A DNA stretch of 64,000 nucleotides, taken from the NCBI GenBank assembly GCA_030697165.1, contig JAUYQQ010000022.1:310001-374000 (forward strand). Direction: 5' to 3'. A program made the translations under genes and the position numbers. Shown one piece after another: positions 9,042 to 40,731 of the stretch. The notes under the pieces are model-generated. The model was not told the DNA's origin. It did not search any database and saw only the letters and a list, made by a program, of their open reading frames with translations. Each line of letters starts with the position of its first letter. Within the stretch, counting starts at the first letter, position 1. The stretch is from Acidobacteriota bacterium (GTDB lineage Bacteria > Acidobacteriota > Vicinamibacteria > Vicinamibacterales > UBA2999).

Positions 9042-9082
9042 GTAAGCCCACAAGCGTAGCACGCACGGTATAAACTATTCCT

Positions 9083-9255
9083 GCTTAGGGTGCCCACGAG
9101 GGCCTAACAGGGAAGTCCGGTGCAACACCGGCGCGGTCCCGCCACTGTAAGGAAGGAACGCCCGCTTCGTTCAACCACTCGGCGTGTTGCCGGGGAAGGT
9201 GAAGCGGGTTGCAGCGCACGCTGCATCCTCCAAGCCAGGAGACCTGCCCCAAGCT
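9083..9255 (+). ncRNA. Cobalamin riboswitch
   Basis: The leader contains the conserved core of the B12 aptamer. The AGGGAAGTCCGGTGCAACAC segment is followed by GCGGTCCC, then the B12 box GCCACTGTAA (9141-9150), and the 3' conserved AAGCCAGGAGACCTGCC block. It lies directly upstream of a TonB receptor with a ribosome binding site GGGGAGG at 9274-9280, which could be sequestered when adenosyl- or methylcobalamin binds. A -10-like TATAAA is at 9069-9074. It predicts repression of the receptor and the PepSY gene by cobalamin. Confidence 0.93.
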
Positions 9256-9288
9256 TCATCCATCGACTTGCCCGGGGAGGCAACCGTC

Positions 9289-11745
9289 ATGCGACTGCCG
9301 ATTCGTTCTGTACTTGTCTGTTTTTTCCTGTTCACCTTCAACGTCGCGATCGGTCCGGCTAAAGCCGGACACTACATGGATCGGGCCGCGTCCATCACCA
9401 ATGTGGCGTCCGGCTTCTTGGGCGCCGTAGCCTTGGCGGAGGCGGCCAGCCGGACCGACGTGGTCATTCAAGGCGTTGTCTCAGACAGCTCCGCGGCCGT
9501 GATCGCCGGGGCCACGGTGGATGCGATCGTCGCCGGACGGTCGGTGTCGCGGGTCACGACCGGTGCCGATGGCCGATTTCGTGTGGTCGTGCCGGCCGGT
9601 GTGCCGGTGGAACTGCGTGTGGCTCGCGAGGGGTTTGCCGACCAGGTAATCGCGCTTGCCGGCAGCGACGCGCTCGTGACGCAGAACGTCACGCTGCAGG
9701 TGGGGGGCGTCTCCGACTCGCTGGTGGTGACCGCGTCGCGCGGAGCGGCAAGCCGCGCCGCCGTCACCGAGTCGGTGACCGCGTTTGCCCGCGCCGACCT
9801 CGACGCGCTCGGCGCCGCGTCGCTGGCCGACGTGGTGCGGTTCGTGCCGGGGGCGTACGTCGAAAGCATCGGCCGCGAGGGGTCGGTGACCTCGATGTTC
9901 ACGCGCGGCGGCGAATCGGACTACAACCTGGTACTGATCGACGGCGTGCGGGTCAACCAGAGCGGCGGTGTCTTCGACTTCAGCCGCATCAGCGCCGCCG
10001 AGATCGATCGCGTCGAAGTGGTGCGAGGCGCGCAATCGGCCCTGTGGGGATCGGACGCCATGGGATCGGTGGTGCAGATCTTCACTCGCCGTGCCGGGGC
10101 CGCCGACCGGCCGCAGGTGTCGGGCTCGGCCGAAGGGGGATCGTTCGGCGCCGTCCGCGGCGATGCGCGCCTGATGGGCGGCGCTTCCAGCCGCGTTGAT
10201 TACTCGGGCGGGCTGTCACGCCGCCAATCGGGCGGCGCCTTTGCCGAGTTGCTGCCGGAGGATGATGAGTTCGAGCAGACGGCGTTCGACGCGGGTGTCG
10301 GCGCCAGCTTCGGCCCCCGCGTCGCGCTGCGCGCCGGCGCGCGCTCGACGACGGCCGAGGGCAAGTCGGTTGGCGCCATTGTCTACGGCGCCCGCAACAC
10401 CGGCGGCGTCTACAACACGCGCGATCGCTCCGGTCACGTTGACCTGTCGCACGCCATCGGCAGCCGGCTGACGGGTATCGCGAGCTTCAATTACTTCCGC
10501 TATACGAGTGAATCGGCCGACACCATTGCCGACCCCCCGTTTACGACTTATGCCGTGCTCGAGGGCACCCCGAACGCGATCTACCCGAATGGCACGCGCC
10601 TCGTGCGGCTGGTGGATGCGGCCGAGTTTGCGACGCTGGTCGCCGCCGGCGCCACTCCCGGCCCCGGCCAGTTCCTCGCGTCGCGGCAGTCGTCGAATTT
10701 CCCGTTCACGAGCAAGTCAGAGTTCGAGCGGCCGGCGTTTCGCTATCAGGCCGACTACGCATGGTCGGGGCAGCGTCTGAGCGCCGGCTACGAATGGGAG
10801 CGCGAGACCAACGTGCTGGTGGCCGGCGTGCAGTTCGACAACCAGGCGGTGTTTGCCCAGCAACAGTTCAGTGGCCGCGATCGCTGGTTCGCCACGGTTG
10901 GCGGCCGGTTCGATCGCAAGGACGGCTCGTCGTTCTTCAGCCCCAAGCTGTCGGCCGGCGGTTACCTGGTGCCCTCCAGGAACGGCGCGGTGTCGTCGCT
11001 CAAGGTGTTCGGCAACCTCGGCCACGGCATCAAGTCGCCGTCGCTCGGCGAGCGCTTCGGCGGGCGGTTTACCGACCCGGCGCCCGACCTGAAGGTGGAG
11101 CAGGCGCGTACCAGCGACCTGGGCGTCGAGGCGACGTTCGCCGATCAACGCTTCCGCGCGCTGGTGACCTATTTCAACAACGACTACACCGATCAGATTG
11201 CTTATCGAGGCGGGGTGGCCGGCGACGGCATTCCCGAGTACATCAACATCGATGGCTCGAAGGCCGACGGGTGGGAACTCGAGTGGGTGCTGCAGCGGCC
11301 GGTGGCCGGCCTGACGGCGTCGGCCAGCTACACGCATGTGGACCACCGCGTGGTCACCAACGTCAGCACCAGCCAGCAGTTCCAACCTGGCCAGCCGCTG
11401 TTGCGCCGGCCGAAACACTCGGGAAATGTGCGTGCCGCCTGGGTGCGCGATCGCGTGTCGCTGAACGCCAGCGCCCGGATCGCGGGCGATCGCCATGACC
11501 ACAGCTTCCTGTCGTTGCGCACGGTGCCGAATGCCGCGCGCCCGACACCCATCACGACCGACATCACCGTCAATCCGGGCTACCTGGTGGTGAACCTGGG
11601 CCTGGACGTCCGCGCGCACGAGATGATCACGCTATTCGTGCGCGGCGAGAATGTCGCGGACGAAGCGTACGAGAGCGTACTCGGTTACCCAGCCATGCCG
11701 CGAACGGTGATGGCCGGCGCGCGCTTCACCTTCGGCACGCGGTAG
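9289..11745 (+). CDS. btuB: TonB-dependent receptor, BtuB-like (cobalamin/corrinoid uptake)
   Basis: The 818-aa product is an outer-membrane receptor under a cobalamin riboswitch. Order: signal peptide, an unusual segment at about 20-60 encoded by two dispersed-repeat units (9352-9377 and 9400-9456), a carboxypeptidase-regulatory-like domain (about 60-145), a plug domain (LADVVRFVPGAYVES, TRGGESDYNLVLIDGVRVN, RVEVVRGAQSALWGSDAMGSVV), then the 22-strand barrel ending in ARFTFGTR. The plug wording (ESIGREGSVTSMFTRGG.SDYNLVLIDG) is typical of BtuB. ATG 9289 is chosen for its GGGGAGG site and hydrophobic leader. The PepSY gene starts two bases downstream. Confidence 0.88.
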   Translation: MRLPIRSVLVCFFLFTFNVAIGPAKAGHYMDRAASITNVASGFLGAVALAEAASRTDVVIQGVVSDSSAAVIAGATVDAIVAGRSVSRVTTGADGRFRVVVPAGVPVELRVAREGFADQVIALAGSDALVTQNVTLQVGGVSDSLVVTASRGAASRAAVTESVTAFARADLDALGAASLADVVRFVPGAYVESIGREGSVTSMFTRGGESDYNLVLIDGVRVNQSGGVFDFSRISAAEIDRVEVVRGAQSALWGSDAMGSVVQIFTRRAGAADRPQVSGSAEGGSFGAVRGDARLMGGASSRVDYSGGLSRRQSGGAFAELLPEDDEFEQTAFDAGVGASFGPRVALRAGARSTTAEGKSVGAIVYGARNTGGVYNTRDRSGHVDLSHAIGSRLTGIASFNYFRYTSESADTIADPPFTTYAVLEGTPNAIYPNGTRLVRLVDAAEFATLVAAGATPGPGQFLASRQSSNFPFTSKSEFERPAFRYQADYAWSGQRLSAGYEWERETNVLVAGVQFDNQAVFAQQQFSGRDRWFATVGGRFDRKDGSSFFSPKLSAGGYLVPSRNGAVSSLKVFGNLGHGIKSPSLGERFGGRFTDPAPDLKVEQARTSDLGVEATFADQRFRALVTYFNNDYTDQIAYRGGVAGDGIPEYINIDGSKADGWELEWVLQRPVAGLTASASYTHVDHRVVTNVSTSQQFQPGQPLLRRPKHSGNVRAAWVRDRVSLNASARIAGDRHDHSFLSLRTVPNAARPTPITTDITVNPGYLVVNLGLDVRAHEMITLFVRGENVADEAYESVLGYPAMPRTVMAGARFTFGTR
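9352..9456. repeat. Dispersed hairpin repeat units inside the btuB-like leader
   Basis: A short unit (GGTCCGGCTAAAGCCGGACA, 9352-9371, continuing to 9377) is followed by a long-loop unit in the opposite orientation (9400-9456, stem GTCCGGCT/AGCCGGAC around a CGTAGCCTTGGCGG loop). Both are read in frame and supply the region between signal peptide and regulatory domain. The long-loop unit is homologous to units at 19022-19078 and 21499-21555. Confidence 0.8.
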
Positions 11746-11747
11746 CC

Positions 11748-12803
11748 ATGAGGCGCCTGCTCTTTCAGCTCCATCTCTGGGTCGGGCTGCTGACGGGGCT
11801 GTACGTCGCCATCATCTGTCTCACTGGTGCAGCGCTCGTGTTTCGCATCGACATGCAGCGGGCGCTGCATCCGCACCTCTTCAACCCGAGCGCCGCCGGT
11901 CCGCTGGCGGATCCGGTGGCCGTGATGGAGAGCGTCAGCCGCGCCTATCCCCAACACCGATTGTCCGGCGTCGATGCGCCGACGACGGTGAGGCCGACGT
12001 ACTTGGCGTACGTCACGAGCGACGCCGAGTTCCGCACCGTGCTGATCGACCCGGTGACGACCGCGGTGCTCGGTGAGCTGCCGGAACATCCGGCGATCCG
12101 CACCCTGCAACAACTGCATTACAACCTGCTGGGGGGCCGCACGGGCCGCACGATTAACGGGATTGGCGCGTTCGGCATCCTGATCCTCTGCGCCACCGGG
12201 CTCGTGATTTGGTGGCCCGGCGCCAGGATTTGGCAGCGCGGGTCCCGCAGCCAGTGGCGGCAGTTGCATCGCGCCATTGGCGCATGGAGCGCGGCGTTCA
12301 TCCTGATGTTCGCCGTCACGGCGCTGTCGTTCGTGTTCCCCGCTGGATTTCGCGCAGTGGTGAACTCGCTGTCGCCCGTCACCGTAGCGCGATCGCCCCA
12401 GTCGGGTGCTCCGTCGGGGAATCCTACGCCCTCGTGGCCGCAGATGCTCGATCGCGCCAAGTCTTTCGCACCAGGCCAGCCGGTGGCGCGCGTGGTGTTG
12501 CCGTTCGGCGAACGCGGAGCCTTCCTGGTGATGTTCGCCAAGCGCAGCCCCACACCGGCCAGCACCGGGCTCACGCCGGTCTATCTCGATCAATACACCG
12601 GCGACCGGCTCGCGTCGGACGGGAAGGCGCGCAGTTGGGGCGATGCGCTGATGGCGCGCATGACGCCCTGGCATGTGGGCGGGGTCGGCGGCCAGGCGGG
12701 CCGCGTGATTTGGTTCGTGTTCGGCCTGGCACCGGCCGTGTTGTTCGTGACCGGCCTGACGACCTGGTGGCGCCGCGGCCGCGGAAAGACAGCCACCGAT
12801 TAG
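11748..12803 (+). CDS. PepSY-associated TM (iron-regulated membrane) protein
   Basis: The 351-aa inner-membrane protein has four predicted membrane segments: at the N-terminus (LWVGLLTGLYVAIICLTGAALVF), around 130-155 after QLHYNLLGGRTGR (INGIGAFGILILCATGLVIWW), around 175-200 (AIGAWSAAFILMFAVTALSFVF) and at the C-terminus (VIWFVFGLAPAVLFVTGLTTWWRR). A PepSY-like region lies between the second pair. Conserved His residues at LHLW, LHYN, LHRA and WHVGG are candidate heme or metal ligands. Relatives commonly sit beside siderophore receptors and are thought to reduce or process the imported ligand. Here it starts two bases after a B12-riboswitch-controlled receptor, so it is probably in the same operon. 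Confidence 0.85.
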   Translation: MRRLLFQLHLWVGLLTGLYVAIICLTGAALVFRIDMQRALHPHLFNPSAAGPLADPVAVMESVSRAYPQHRLSGVDAPTTVRPTYLAYVTSDAEFRTVLIDPVTTAVLGELPEHPAIRTLQQLHYNLLGGRTGRTINGIGAFGILILCATGLVIWWPGARIWQRGSRSQWRQLHRAIGAWSAAFILMFAVTALSFVFPAGFRAVVNSLSPVTVARSPQSGAPSGNPTPSWPQMLDRAKSFAPGQPVARVVLPFGERGAFLVMFAKRSPTPASTGLTPVYLDQYTGDRLASDGKARSWGDALMARMTPWHVGGVGGQAGRVIWFVFGLAPAVLFVTGLTTWWRRGRGKTATD

Positions 12804-13027
12804 ACGCAGATTAGACACCGATCCACGAGGACCCGCGTCGCCGGGCTACGCCCGGCTAACCAGTGAGGTCACCGGCGCGAATTCGAGAGACGTGTGTTCG
12901 GGGCTGTCTCTCGGATTCGTGCCGGCGACCTCACTGGCCGGCCGAAGGCCGGCGCGGGTCCTCTCGTGTCTGGTTCGCGCGGGTTTGCCGTCGCTGAATC
13001 TGTGAAATCTGTGCAATCTGTGGCTGT
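12788..13027 (+). repeat. Cloverleaf-like structured element, copy A
   Basis: The core is 12825-12967. The outer stem ACGAGGACCCGC (12825-12836) pairs with GCGGGTCCTCTCGT (12954-12967, two-base bulge). Hairpin 1 is GCCGGGC-TAC-GCCCGGC (12840-12856). A central 32-bp arm joins 12860-12891 to 12906-12937 with two G:U wobbles and one mismatch. Hairpin 2 is GCCGGCC-GAA-GGCCGGC (12937-12953). The flanks add an outer inverted pair (ACAGCCAC near 12788 and the AATCTGTG tandem ending GTGGCTGT near 13026). It lies between the PepSY gene and the PLP enzyme. The wobbles favour an RNA read from the plus strand. Confidence 0.8.
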
Positions 13028-13050
13028 ATTCTTTGTGGCCAGGAGCCAGC

Positions 13051-14289
13051 ATGAACAGCAAGTCCTCTACGTCTCGTCGAGCGTTCCTCGCCGCATCAGC
13101 CGCCACGGCCGCGCACGTCTGGGTTCCGCGGCCCGTGAAGGGCTACTCGGTGTCGGAGGTCATGGCGCCGGTGAAGCCCATGCCCGCGGGTATTTCCAAG
13201 TGGGACCTCGATACGCCGGCGCTCTGTGTCGATCTCGACAAGCTCGAACAGAACATCGCAAAGATGCAGCGGTCGCTCGTGGCCAATAAGCTGGGCAGCC
13301 GCCCGCACGCCAAGACCCACAAGTGCGCGGCCATCGCGAAGCTGCAGATGGCCGCCGGGGCGTTGGGGATCTGCACGGCCAAGCTCAGCGAGGCCGAGGC
13401 GCTGGCCGGCCAGGGGCTCGACCGCATCTGCATGACGACCGGCAACCTGTCGAGGTCGAAGATCCGCCGGGCCATGCAGCTGCGCAAGCGGACGCCGCAG
13501 TTCATTCAGGCGGTGGACTACGAGCCCAACGCGCACGACCTGAACGCGGCGGCGAAGGAAGCTGGCATCGTGGCCGACGTGGTCATCGACGTGGCGGTCG
13601 GCACGCGCAGCGGCGTGCCCGCCGGCGACGCAGCGTTGGCGCTGGCCCAGGTGGTCGACCGGCTGCCGAACCTGAAGCTGCGTGGCTTGTTGTCGTACGA
13701 CGGCGGCGCGCAGCACATCATCGGGTTCGCGGCGCGCAAGCAGCGCGCGCTGAAGAACATTGAAGCCAACGCGCTCACGTATGAGGCCATGACGAAGGCC
13801 GGCCTCAACACCGAGATCTTCAGCGGGGGCGGCACCGGCACCTACAGCATCCAGCACCTCGTGTCCGGATTCACCGACGTGCAGGTGGGCAGCTACCTCT
13901 TCATGGACATGCAGTACCTGGCCATTGGCAGCGAAGACGGCAACCCCGTCTACGCGGACTTTGCTCCGTCGCTCACCGTGCTCGCGACCATCGTCAACAA
14001 CCGCTTCCCGGGCCGCCTCACCACCGATGCCGGCGCCAAGGCCCTGACGCTCAACGTGCCGCGTCCAGGCGTGATCGGCGAGCCGGGCATGGAGTACAAC
14101 CCCGGCTCGGACGAGTTCGGTGTCATCACGTTCAAGGAAGCCAGCAAGACCTACCAGATGGGCGATCGCCTGGAGATGATCGTGCCGCACTGCGATCCGG
14201 TCGTGAATCTCTACGACTACCTGTATGGGATTCGGAAAGATCGCGTCGAGGCGGTGTGGCCGATCACCGCGCGCGGCCACTCGCAGTAG
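13051..14289 (+). CDS. Tat-exported DSD1-family PLP enzyme (D-threonine aldolase/D-serine dehydratase-like)
   Basis: The 412-aa product starts at ATG 13051 with AGGAG upstream. The N-terminus carries a twin-arginine signal (SRRAFLAASAATAA). The rest is the alanine-racemase-type TIM barrel plus beta domain: DTPALCVDLDKLEQNI, RPHAKTHK with the PLP Lys, GTCTAKLSEAE-like (GICTAKLSEAE), VDVAVGTRSGV (as IDVAVGTRSGV), FSGGGTGTY, and the C-terminal metal ligands His and Cys in IVPHCDPVVNLYD. Family members cleave or dehydrate D-beta-hydroxy amino acids with a divalent metal. The periplasmic location suggests degradation of external D-amino acids. It is bracketed by two structured repeat elements. Confidence 0.87.
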   Translation: MNSKSSTSRRAFLAASAATAAHVWVPRPVKGYSVSEVMAPVKPMPAGISKWDLDTPALCVDLDKLEQNIAKMQRSLVANKLGSRPHAKTHKCAAIAKLQMAAGALGICTAKLSEAEALAGQGLDRICMTTGNLSRSKIRRAMQLRKRTPQFIQAVDYEPNAHDLNAAAKEAGIVADVVIDVAVGTRSGVPAGDAALALAQVVDRLPNLKLRGLLSYDGGAQHIIGFAARKQRALKNIEANALTYEAMTKAGLNTEIFSGGGTGTYSIQHLVSGFTDVQVGSYLFMDMQYLAIGSEDGNPVYADFAPSLTVLATIVNNRFPGRLTTDAGAKALTLNVPRPGVIGEPGMEYNPGSDEFGVITFKEASKTYQMGDRLEMIVPHCDPVVNLYDYLYGIRKDRVEAVWPITARGHSQ

Positions 14290-14359
14290 CTACTGTTTGC
14301 CCGCGCCAGTCTTCACGGGCCACAGACTTGTCCCGCCATAGCGCGACGCGCGACGGCGG

Positions 14360-14590
14360 ATTCCGCAGACTAACGCAGAGACACGAGGACCCGCCTCGCC
14401 GGGCTTTGCCCGGCGAGCACAGCGAGGTCACGACCACGAAATCGAGAGACACTGGGTTATCTGCGGTCTCTCGATTCTCGTGGTCGTGACCTCGCGAGCC
14501 GGCCGCAGGCCGGCGCGGGTCCTCTCATGTCTGGTTCGCGCGAGGCTCGCCTGATTTGAATCTGTGTAATCTGCGTAATCTGTGGCTGTC
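14360..14590 (+). repeat. Cloverleaf-like structured element, copy B
   Basis: It has the same architecture as the element at 12788-13027. The outer stem pairs 14383-14394 with 14515-14529. Hairpin 1 is 14395-14417 (10-bp stem, TTT loop). The central arm joins 14422-14450 to 14466-14495 with a single bulge. Hairpin 2 is GCCGGCC-GCA-GGCCGGC (14498-14514). It is followed by TGTCTGGTTCGCGCG (conserved with copy A) and an AATCTG tandem. Central-arm sequence differs from copy A but pairing is kept. It occupies the gap between convergent genes (14290-14602), where it may also act as a terminator. Confidence 0.8.
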
Positions 14591-14602
14591 TTTGGACCAG
14601 CG

Positions 14603-25944: not shown

Positions 25945-26034
25945 TGGCGGAGAGAAAGGGATTCGAACCCTTGGTACAATTTCTTGTACACACGCTTTCC
26001 AAGCGTGCTCCTTCAACCACTCGGACATCTCTCC
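25945..26034 (-). tRNA. tRNA-Ser (anticodon GGA)
   Basis: The minus-strand sequence starts GGAGAGATGTCCGAGTGG. The acceptor stem is GGAGAGA/TCTCTCC, the anticodon loop TTGGAAA (GGA) sits on the CACGC/GCGTG stem, there is a long class-II variable arm (TGTACAAGAAATTGTACCA), and the T-arm carries GGTTCGAATCC. The CCA end is encoded. It reads serine UCC/UCU codons. Confidence 0.97.
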
Positions 26035-40625: not shown

Positions 40626-40731
40626 GTTCGGCCCGGAACCTCGGCAATCTCAGGGCGGCGAATCGCGTCAGGGCCGGAAGGCAGCAGCGCTAAGTCGTTT
40701 CCGTGATGTGTTGAGGACCTCCGGGCCGAGT
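40626..40731 (+). ncRNA. ffs: Bacterial small SRP RNA (4.5S)
   Basis: A terminal stem TCGGCCCGGA (40628-40637) pairs perfectly with TCCGGGCCGA (40720-40729). The apical domain contains the conserved GTCAGGGCCGGAAGGCAGCA (40667-40686), the GGAA tetraloop and symmetric loop bound by Ffh. A T-rich TTTCCCTT follows. Position just upstream of dnaX matches the classical ffs-dnaX-ybaB-recR order. Confidence 0.93.

Follow-up and report, generated by a model that had tools for sequence, protein, structure and literature searches.

Two cloverleaf-shaped repeats, copies A and B, lie in a 64,000-nucleotide stretch of the genome of an Acidobacteriota bacterium (GenBank assembly GCA_030697165.1, contig JAUYQQ010000022.1, positions 310,001 to 374,000; the whole stretch is called the window below, and A and B are numbered within it). 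With moderate confidence, we interpret both copies as gene-less, non-autonomous DNA modules of a composite element in which a gene of the GxxExxY protein family is enclosed by tandemly repeated short words (iterons). The fuller form of this element consists of inverted tandem iterons, a cloverleaf, the GxxExxY gene (TIGR04256/PF13366), a second cloverleaf and inverted iterons. The cloverleaf family is probably a family of mobile elements. Genomes, contigs and loci are designated below by our own G, C and L numbers.

Cloverleaf fold of copies A and B

Both copies follow a four-way plan with an outer stem, a hairpin, a long central arm with an unpaired tip and a second hairpin, in a core of 137–140 bp to which no strand is assigned. 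The core of copy A (12827–12963) is closed by an outer stem of 12827–12837 and 12953–12963, which encloses hairpin 1 (12840–12856), the central arm (12860–12937) and hairpin 2 (12938–12952). The corresponding parts of copy B (14385–14524) are the outer stem 14385–14394/14515–14524, hairpin 1 at 14395–14417, the central arm at 14422–14495 and hairpin 2 at 14498–14514. An initial annotation of this DNA had described two cloverleaf-like elements flanking a DSD1-type gene, and its positions prove right to within a few bases. All four parts that it named (outer stem, GCCGGGC/GCCCGGC hairpin, long central arm and GGCCGGC-type hairpin) are present, and the compensatory change that it reported, from CCGGC/GCCGG in A to CGACC/GGTCG in B, is genuine.

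The fold is exceptionally stable in both molecules. Folded as RNA with their flanks, the two copies gave z-scores of −12.1 and −11.9, and as single-stranded DNA each strand of each core gave z-scores between −11.3 and −13.4; in every case, none of 200 dinucleotide shuffles was as stable. Both strands of A and of B adopt the same cloverleaf plan as DNA. A covariance model, built from seven copies of this genome with A and B both among the seven, scored 121.9 bits for A and 135.2 bits for B on the plus strand, compared with 69 and 74.9 bits on the minus strand. By these scores A and B have the same orientation, as initially annotated, yet the element is nearly strand-symmetric.

Tandem iterons enclose each core. 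To the right of copy A, a AATCTGTG tandem occupies 12995–13030 (direct repeat D3), and to its left tandem C.GATTA units, the reverse complement of the right iterons, extend over 12785–12822 (inverted repeats I7 and I17, together with the sequence itself). Copy B is followed by a AATCTGTG/AATCTGCG tandem at 14557–14592 (also direct repeat D3) and preceded by degenerate iterons at about 14359–14380, which were recognized by sequence, by alignment and by a weak match to the iteron pattern. The initial annotation had both copies followed by AATCTG tandems. The right-hand tandem is indeed there, but the left-hand units had been missed; since these answer the right tandem in reverse complement, AATCTG is one end of a terminal inverted repeat and not a trailing repeat only.

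Association with GxxExxY nuclease genes

The genome that contains the window (the own genome in the following) has eight GxxExxY genes. One of them lies between two cloverleafs with inverted iterons outside (L068), and at another, cloverleaf and iterons accompany the gene on one side (L071). Two-sided composites also occur in relatives, namely at L122 (the same locus as L294) in G007 and at L109 (the same as L289) and L279 in G002, the last with CTCTGTG-type iterons; one-sided cases are L112 (the same as L298), L287, L283 and, in G150, L295. At L068, L109, L122 and L279, cloverleaf and GxxExxY gene lie together inside inverted iterons. By eye, L109 adjoins seemingly the same neighbor gene as L068, yet the arm sequences at the two loci are quite different.

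Counted over all GxxExxY genes of the cloverleaf lineages, a cloverleaf lies within 500 bp of 9 of 33, seven being recognized by a strict structural scan and two more (L298 and L289) by the covariance model. In four of the nine (L068, L289, L294 and L279) there is a cloverleaf on each side of the gene. The 33 loci are the eight of the own genome and 25 from G001–G008, G013 and G150, with the sub-threshold L293 left out; two of them are from G003, which has no full cloverleaf by the model. From the copy density in the own genome, about 0.14 adjacencies would be expected and the Poisson probability of seven or more is about 2 × 10−10, on the assumption of random placement; a shared preference for intergenic DNA would raise the expectation.

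Outside these lineages, the model matched at none of 105 GxxExxY loci (0/94 and 0/11; L149, which is a G002 locus again, was left out). The strict structural scan of other GxxExxY loci returned 1 of 79, by eye an ordinary chance fold, and with a loose scan cloverleaf-like folds were rarer near GxxExxY genes (16 in 105,557 bases) than in control sequence (59 in 232,783). On these counts, we rejected the idea that GxxExxY elements generally include a cloverleaf.

The partner gene is a clear member of the GxxExxY family (TIGR04256; PF13366, PDDEXK_3), with scores of 132.4 and 126 bits against a curated cut-off of 35. Residues E35, D75, E84-x-K86 and Q98xxxY102 are invariant in an alignment of 11 proteins, a pattern that we take to represent the PD-(D/E)XK motifs. 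The nearest fold to the AlphaFold model of the protein (132 residues, mean predicted local distance difference test score 91.2) is SSO0001 (4ic1), presumably a Cas4 protein, with a Foldseek E of 3.5e-4, a TM-score of about 0.5, and a VIA Z of 9.7 at a root-mean-square deviation (rmsd) of 4.7 over 103 residues; it is the only chain above Z 8. The next neighbors, at Z of about 6–7, are restriction enzymes, Cas4-like proteins, AddAB/AdnAB and Hjc, a likeness that may reflect no more than a common arrangement. The predicted structure thus has a nuclease fold, and this fold does not point to a substrate. A role in anti-phage defence was rejected, since no PADLOC model matched.

Iterons and the nuclease lineage

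Inverted iterons are found on both sides of 18 of the 23 own copies compared and on one side of the other 5, by a loose count (two or more units of a five-letter pattern with one free letter) under which two units sometimes occur by chance. Around the GxxExxY genes, the left 500 bp was compared with the reverse complement of the right 500 bp, a score of 34 or more being taken as a pass. Of eighty loci from named genomes 75 were testable, and flanking inverted repeats passed in 52 of these, compared with 0 of 181 control windows taken from elsewhere in the same loci and mostly coding; in the cloverleaf lineages 15 of the 21 testable loci passed. Several loci that scored below 34 still display iterons by eye.

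GxxExxY genes are present in 21 of 60 genomes of this phylum. Eighteen of the 24 loci classed there have assigned words (13 AGAG, 2 AAAG, and one each of GAAG, GGAA and CAAG), four are classed as other and two have none; AGAT is absent among them. The nuclease tree, which is based on few columns and has many weak forks, comprises 105 proteins from 17 named or kindred phyla, with the AGAT word in 14 of them. On the 84 rows with both a word and a phylum, the word requires 10 changes, as against 23.2 after shuffling of the labels (minimum 20 of 200), and phylum requires 32, as against 50.7 (minimum 44). The iteron word tracks the nuclease lineage across phyla. Words were assigned by simple patterns, and the 84 rows are what is left of 116 loci tried: a protein and flanks were available for 109, the length sufficed for the tree in 105, and 86 received a word; loci L149–L228 had been picked for likeness to the AGAT-type nuclease, favoring one word.

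Cloverleafs were found with the words AATCTG, CTCTGTG, CTTCGTG, CATGAAG and CGCGGAG. Further words in the same lineages (L013 2802–2921; L067; L071 51–110; L283 2010–2100; L288 110–150) are AGGAGATC, CCCCAAG-type, AATCCCGC and CTGCCCCA. Iteron blocks with neither cloverleaf nor nuclease gene nearby were seen, as pattern or similarity matches, at L011–L013, L017, L018, L025, L026 and L032–L035; they could be remnants or target sites. At four GxxExxY loci of other phyla (L193, L173, L174 and L169), inverted complementarity continues beyond the iterons, giving the impression of an element placed midway in a hairpin.

Pairing is kept while the arms diverge

We compared 44 elements, 23 of them own copies and 21 from relatives, together with 17 copies from G150. 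At the first 20 positions of the central arm that are paired, Watson-Crick pairing in the 44 elements stood at 94.4% inside one element and at 31.6% when a 5′ arm was combined with the 3′ arm of another element. The 44 central 5′ arms are all distinct, with none common to two elements. The hairpins and the outer stem are less divergent than the central arm, with 98.4–99.6% pairing within and 43–49% after swapping (38–42 of the 44). In G150, identity between copies is 93% for the outer stem and hairpin 1, 76% for hairpin 2 and the outer stem, and 50% for the central arm, where regions of 80–84 nt form 31–35 pairs each and pairing is 98.2% within compared with 50.0% swapped. The within-element figures are high by construction, because the paired positions were taken from the fold itself, so that the swapped figures and the pair counts carry the weight; single mismatches were added to the paired positions for the 44 elements and not for G150.

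The initial annotation had looked to further copies as a check on the pairing, and many more copies do keep it through sequence change. Its argument that covariation between only two copies already speaks for selection on structure was too strong, since arm-to-arm correction in an extruded palindrome yields the same pattern unselected. Such correction is the strongest rival explanation of the covariation: a quasi-palindrome that is extruded or single-stranded would have one arm copied onto the other by mismatch repair or template switching, and the fold would need no function. We give this explanation an appreciable chance, if a smaller one than its converse, and it may hold together with the interpretation of A and B as modules of a nuclease-bearing element. 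It fits the nearly free sequence of the central arm, the excess of transitions among the central-arm differences in G150 (1070 compared with 692 transversions, counted over copy pairs and not as independent events), the lack of strand bias among mismatches described below, and a copy in G008 that is missing most of its central arm; long palindromes often lose their arms. It fits less well with the greater conservation of the outer stem and hairpins in G150 than of the central arm, and with the presence of the three-armed plan in all 44 elements. More than palindrome correction therefore seems to be at work, with the reservation that fold or model served to find the copies, so that badly broken ones are under-counted.

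Probable action as DNA rather than RNA

Selection on an RNA should tolerate G·U pairs and not A·C mismatches. We therefore folded the elements without G·U pairs and counted single mismatches. The 44 elements contain 28 G·T, 38 A·C and 14 other mismatches beside 2344 Watson-Crick pairs, and the G150 copies 6, 7 and 9, respectively, beside 929 pairs. By gene context, 26 of the 44 copies lie between codirectional genes, 8 between convergent and 5 between divergent ones, and 5 are unclear. On the transcribed strand of the 26 codirectional intervals, with gene direction guessed from open frames and base composition, there are 15 G·U and 28 A·C mismatches; an earlier, rougher call of direction, in which some loci were miscalled (as seen for L104), also gave more A·C (13 G·U compared with 29 A·C). 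Mismatches within single elements tend, by eye, to be of one kind more than expected, which could reflect strand-biased mutation or an overlooked strand preference. The initial statement that mismatches are mainly G:U holds for copy A, where it concerns two of three single mismatches, and does not hold for the family as a whole.

Rfam had no family reaching the gathering threshold over the elements, in keeping with the initial annotation; four of the eight sub-threshold matches were microRNA hairpin models. A transcribed structured RNA, such as a regulatory RNA, a terminator or an antiterminator, would account for the very stable fold and for the position of most copies between codirectional or convergent genes (26 + 8 of 44). 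We consider it very unlikely, in view of the lack of a G·U excess over A·C on the transcribed strand, the equally good fold of the complementary strand, the Rfam result, and the placement of copies inside inverted iterons and, in some cases, beside a nuclease gene. After the mismatch, strand and Rfam tests, we rejected a structured RNA. The cloverleaf probably acts as DNA, and an RNA reading, which the initial annotation had offered as a new structured RNA or a terminator-antiterminator, is not supported, because of the strand symmetry, the absence of a G·U excess over A·C, and the link with a nuclease gene and with inverted iterons.

Number and distribution of copies

A DNA similarity search of the own genome returned 31 matches (40 of 91 candidates were scored), mainly 30–80 bp long and in or beside iterons, and a strict three-unit iteron pattern matched 44 times, compared with 8 for a reversed control pattern. 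The own copies first extracted in full, 17 in number, all fold as cloverleafs. The covariance model added further own copies, and with it cloverleafs were found in 8 of the 9 genomes of the genus, the own genome included, and in 1 of 31 other genomes searched. The range is patchy across the order, where 10 of 162 genomes have matches at E up to 1e-5, including G150 and G155 of another family; the filters of this search were stricter, and G013, which matched in the genus search, gave no match in it. G150 has 19 model matches at 17 places.

Copy numbers are lower bounds, as part of the candidates was scored (150 of 11031 in the own genome; 84 or 20 per genome in relatives). Own copies were found by DNA similarity and the iteron pattern and then by the model, so that badly broken copies were missed. 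Left out of the 44 compared elements were L041 and L048, which are cut by contig ends, the arm-deleted copy at the B site of G008, two matches in G007 (C9 and C27) and those copies next to GxxExxY genes that came to light later (L279, L283, L287 and L295). Two own-genome contigs break off inside a cloverleaf (L041 at the end of C8 and L048 at the end of C10); cloverleaf copies probably break the assembly and are hence under-counted.

Among the own copies, four pairs are no more than 3 kb apart, where 0.28 would be expected. The cloverleafs at L103 1028–1169 and L015 1325–1465 (C21) are near-identical by eye; as with A and B, coding sequence separates them, over a distance of about 2.2 kb.

Sites of A and B in sister species and the surrounding window

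Cloverleaf presence at the A and B sites varies between species, with different cloverleafs occupying these two sites. The A site of G008 has a cloverleaf whose score is higher when it is read against the direction of the flanking genes (112.4 compared with 65.7 bits), and the B site of this genome has the copy lacking most of its central arm. In G007, the same gene has cloverleafs on both its upstream and its downstream side; their arms differ, and their iterons are different or interleaved. The A site of G003 has half a cloverleaf (27 bits), and no cloverleaf was found by the model at the places compared in G002 and G004.

The gene between the copies (13051–14289, plus strand) contains Ala_racemase_N and D-ser_dehydrat domains (Pfam), in agreement with its initial DSD1-type label. 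Genes around the copies encode a PepSY-associated membrane protein, this D-serine dehydratase-like protein and a pseudouridine synthase. The DSD1-type gene is probably a bystander: in G002, which yielded no cloverleaf there, it likewise lies next to the pseudouridine synthase gene; on the same grounds, we rejected a composite in which A and B carry the DSD1-type gene. Elsewhere, the window contains a Cobalamin riboswitch at 9071–9265 (plus strand, 106.8 bits), overlapping the start of an open frame at 9184–11745 that by eye resembles a TonB receptor, a bacterial small signal recognition particle RNA at 40631–40729 (plus strand) and a tRNA at 25948–26034 (minus strand).

Proposed mechanism

If A and B are modules of the GxxExxY/iteron element, the nuclease, with or without host helpers, might recognize either the iterons or the four-way junction once extruded, and then cut, and the element could be copied into iteron-bearing intergenic sites through homing-like repair. 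The homing step, taken alone, is doubtful. Homing-like repair would account for the missing target-site duplication, the mixed or interleaved iterons, the reuse of sites by different cloverleafs and at least one seemingly inverted copy. The central arm would stay paired while drifting, either through arm-to-arm correction when extruded or single-stranded, or since folding is needed by the junction, or both.

Transposition, nuclease activity and binding are putative, and several observations weigh against this interpretation. Of the 33 GxxExxY genes in the cloverleaf lineages, 24 have no cloverleaf within 500 bp, and GxxExxY loci in other phyla do without one, so that the cloverleaf is dispensable for the element as a whole. 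G155 has cloverleafs without any match to GxxExxY. Flank scores are below 34 in 23 of 75 loci, and in 6 of 21 in the cloverleaf lineages. The nuclease is partly inherited with phylum, and shared descent explains part of its link to the iteron word. Only iteron remnants are left at the A site of G006, which therefore cannot serve as a clean empty site. In 54 AGAT-type GxxExxY elements, direct repeats at the ends were not in excess, which leaves a standard transposon with target-site duplication unsupported. Plasmid copies recent enough to reveal an empty site were also lacking among eight records, all below 60% identity.

In another explanation, the cloverleaf and the iteron/GxxExxY element are independent parasites that share intergenic sites, and the nuclease does nothing to the cloverleaf. 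The several iteron words and the GxxExxY loci of other phyla that have no cloverleafs agree with it. We regard it as unlikely, given that 9 of 33 genes are adjacent to a cloverleaf where about 0.14 are expected (more, if there is a shared intergenic preference), often directly beside the gene inside its iterons and with four two-sided cases.

Beyond the assignment of A and B, we put forward tentatively, as a possibility to which we attach rather low confidence, an undescribed class of mobile DNA. A small stand-alone PD-(D/E)XK nuclease would home, in many phyla, between tandem-word iterons whose units combine a short constant CRC with a word of 4–5 nt that varies by nuclease lineage. One lineage would have acquired a cloverleaf in which both sides of the central arm are rewritten in nearly every copy, a paired hypervariable region made by DNA-level correction, with a Holliday-junction-like fold kept as substrate. 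Full-text searches, with subscription papers and preprints outside their coverage, returned no account of a cloverleaf/iteron/GxxExxY system among the papers listed. If right, this proposal would account jointly for the AATCTGCG-, CTCTGCG- and TTCGTG-type tandems around GxxExxY genes in many phyla and for structured DNA repeats otherwise read as RNA. It would also give the little-studied GxxExxY family a testable role, most genes coming with their own iteron word as ready-made substrates. On the same condition, the elements would be a natural setting in which to tell neutral palindrome correction apart from structural selection; taking covariation as proof of a functional RNA is a general trap. 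Should homing and paired hypervariation be demonstrated, the class would be new.

Comparison with known systems

Bacterial miniature inverted-repeat transposable elements (MITEs) are short, non-coding and multi-copy, with terminal inverted repeats and a gene-bearing relative. The cloverleaf element is likewise short, non-coding and multi-copy with terminal inverted repeats, the GxxExxY-bearing composites at L068, L109, L122 and L279 being candidates for its gene-bearing relative, and the initial suggestion of a MITE-like element of unrecognized family stands as regards the inverted-repeat ends, the multiple copies and the absence of an Rfam family at the gathering score. It differs from MITEs in that its ends are tandem iterons with a period of 9–11 bp, a cloverleaf lies inside them, the partner is not a known transposase, and no target-site duplication was seen in the gene-bearing elements.

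Among protein families, the associated gene belongs to GxxExxY, whose family names are silent on iterons or cloverleafs. Its best fold neighbor, SSO0001, places the model near the Cas4/lambda-exonuclease branch of PD-(D/E)XK enzymes. The hallmark of Cas4 is a four-cysteine iron-sulphur cluster, whereas the 11 aligned GxxExxY proteins have no conserved cysteine set for one. The archaeal Holliday-junction resolvase Hjc combines the PD-(D/E)XK fold with action on four-way junctions, and its structure 1gef aligns with the GxxExxY model at Z 6.5 and an rmsd of 3.6 over 85 residues; it is tied with many restriction enzymes at similar Z, which leaves a special likeness to Holliday-junction resolvases unsupported.

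The nearest kind of system is that of repetitive extragenic palindromes (REPs) and bacterial interspersed mosaic elements (BIMEs) with their transposase TnpA-REP (REP-associated tyrosine transposase, RAYT). REPs are palindromes of 20–40 bp with GTAG or CGTC tags (PMC3733652) and have an HUH Y1 enzyme. As in the present elements, multi-copy palindromes are tied there to one small co-evolving enzyme gene, and REPs are proposed to be non-autonomous passengers (PMC8266576, PMC3733652).

The cloverleafs could in principle be REP/BIME-like palindromes spread by a RAYT-type Y1 transposase of the same genome, which has six Y1_Tnp genes, and mobilization by a co-evolving enzyme has been proposed for REPs (PMC8266576). 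We consider this highly improbable. None of the six Y1_Tnp loci (L061–L066, about 1.5 kb on each side) has AATCTG-type iterons, the words searched for there, or a model match, while some GxxExxY loci have them. A Y1/RAYT partner, not being found beside cloverleaf repeats, was rejected. In size and plan the elements are also unlike the tagged REPs of 20–40 bp (PMC3733652), as the core is about 135 bp with four helices (GTAG and CGTC tags were not searched for separately). Thus, REP/RAYT is the nearest kind, and the cloverleaf element is not a member of it, having another enzyme, a PD-(D/E)XK protein, other ends, made of inverted tandem iterons, and another fold, a four-way cloverleaf with hypervariable paired arms.

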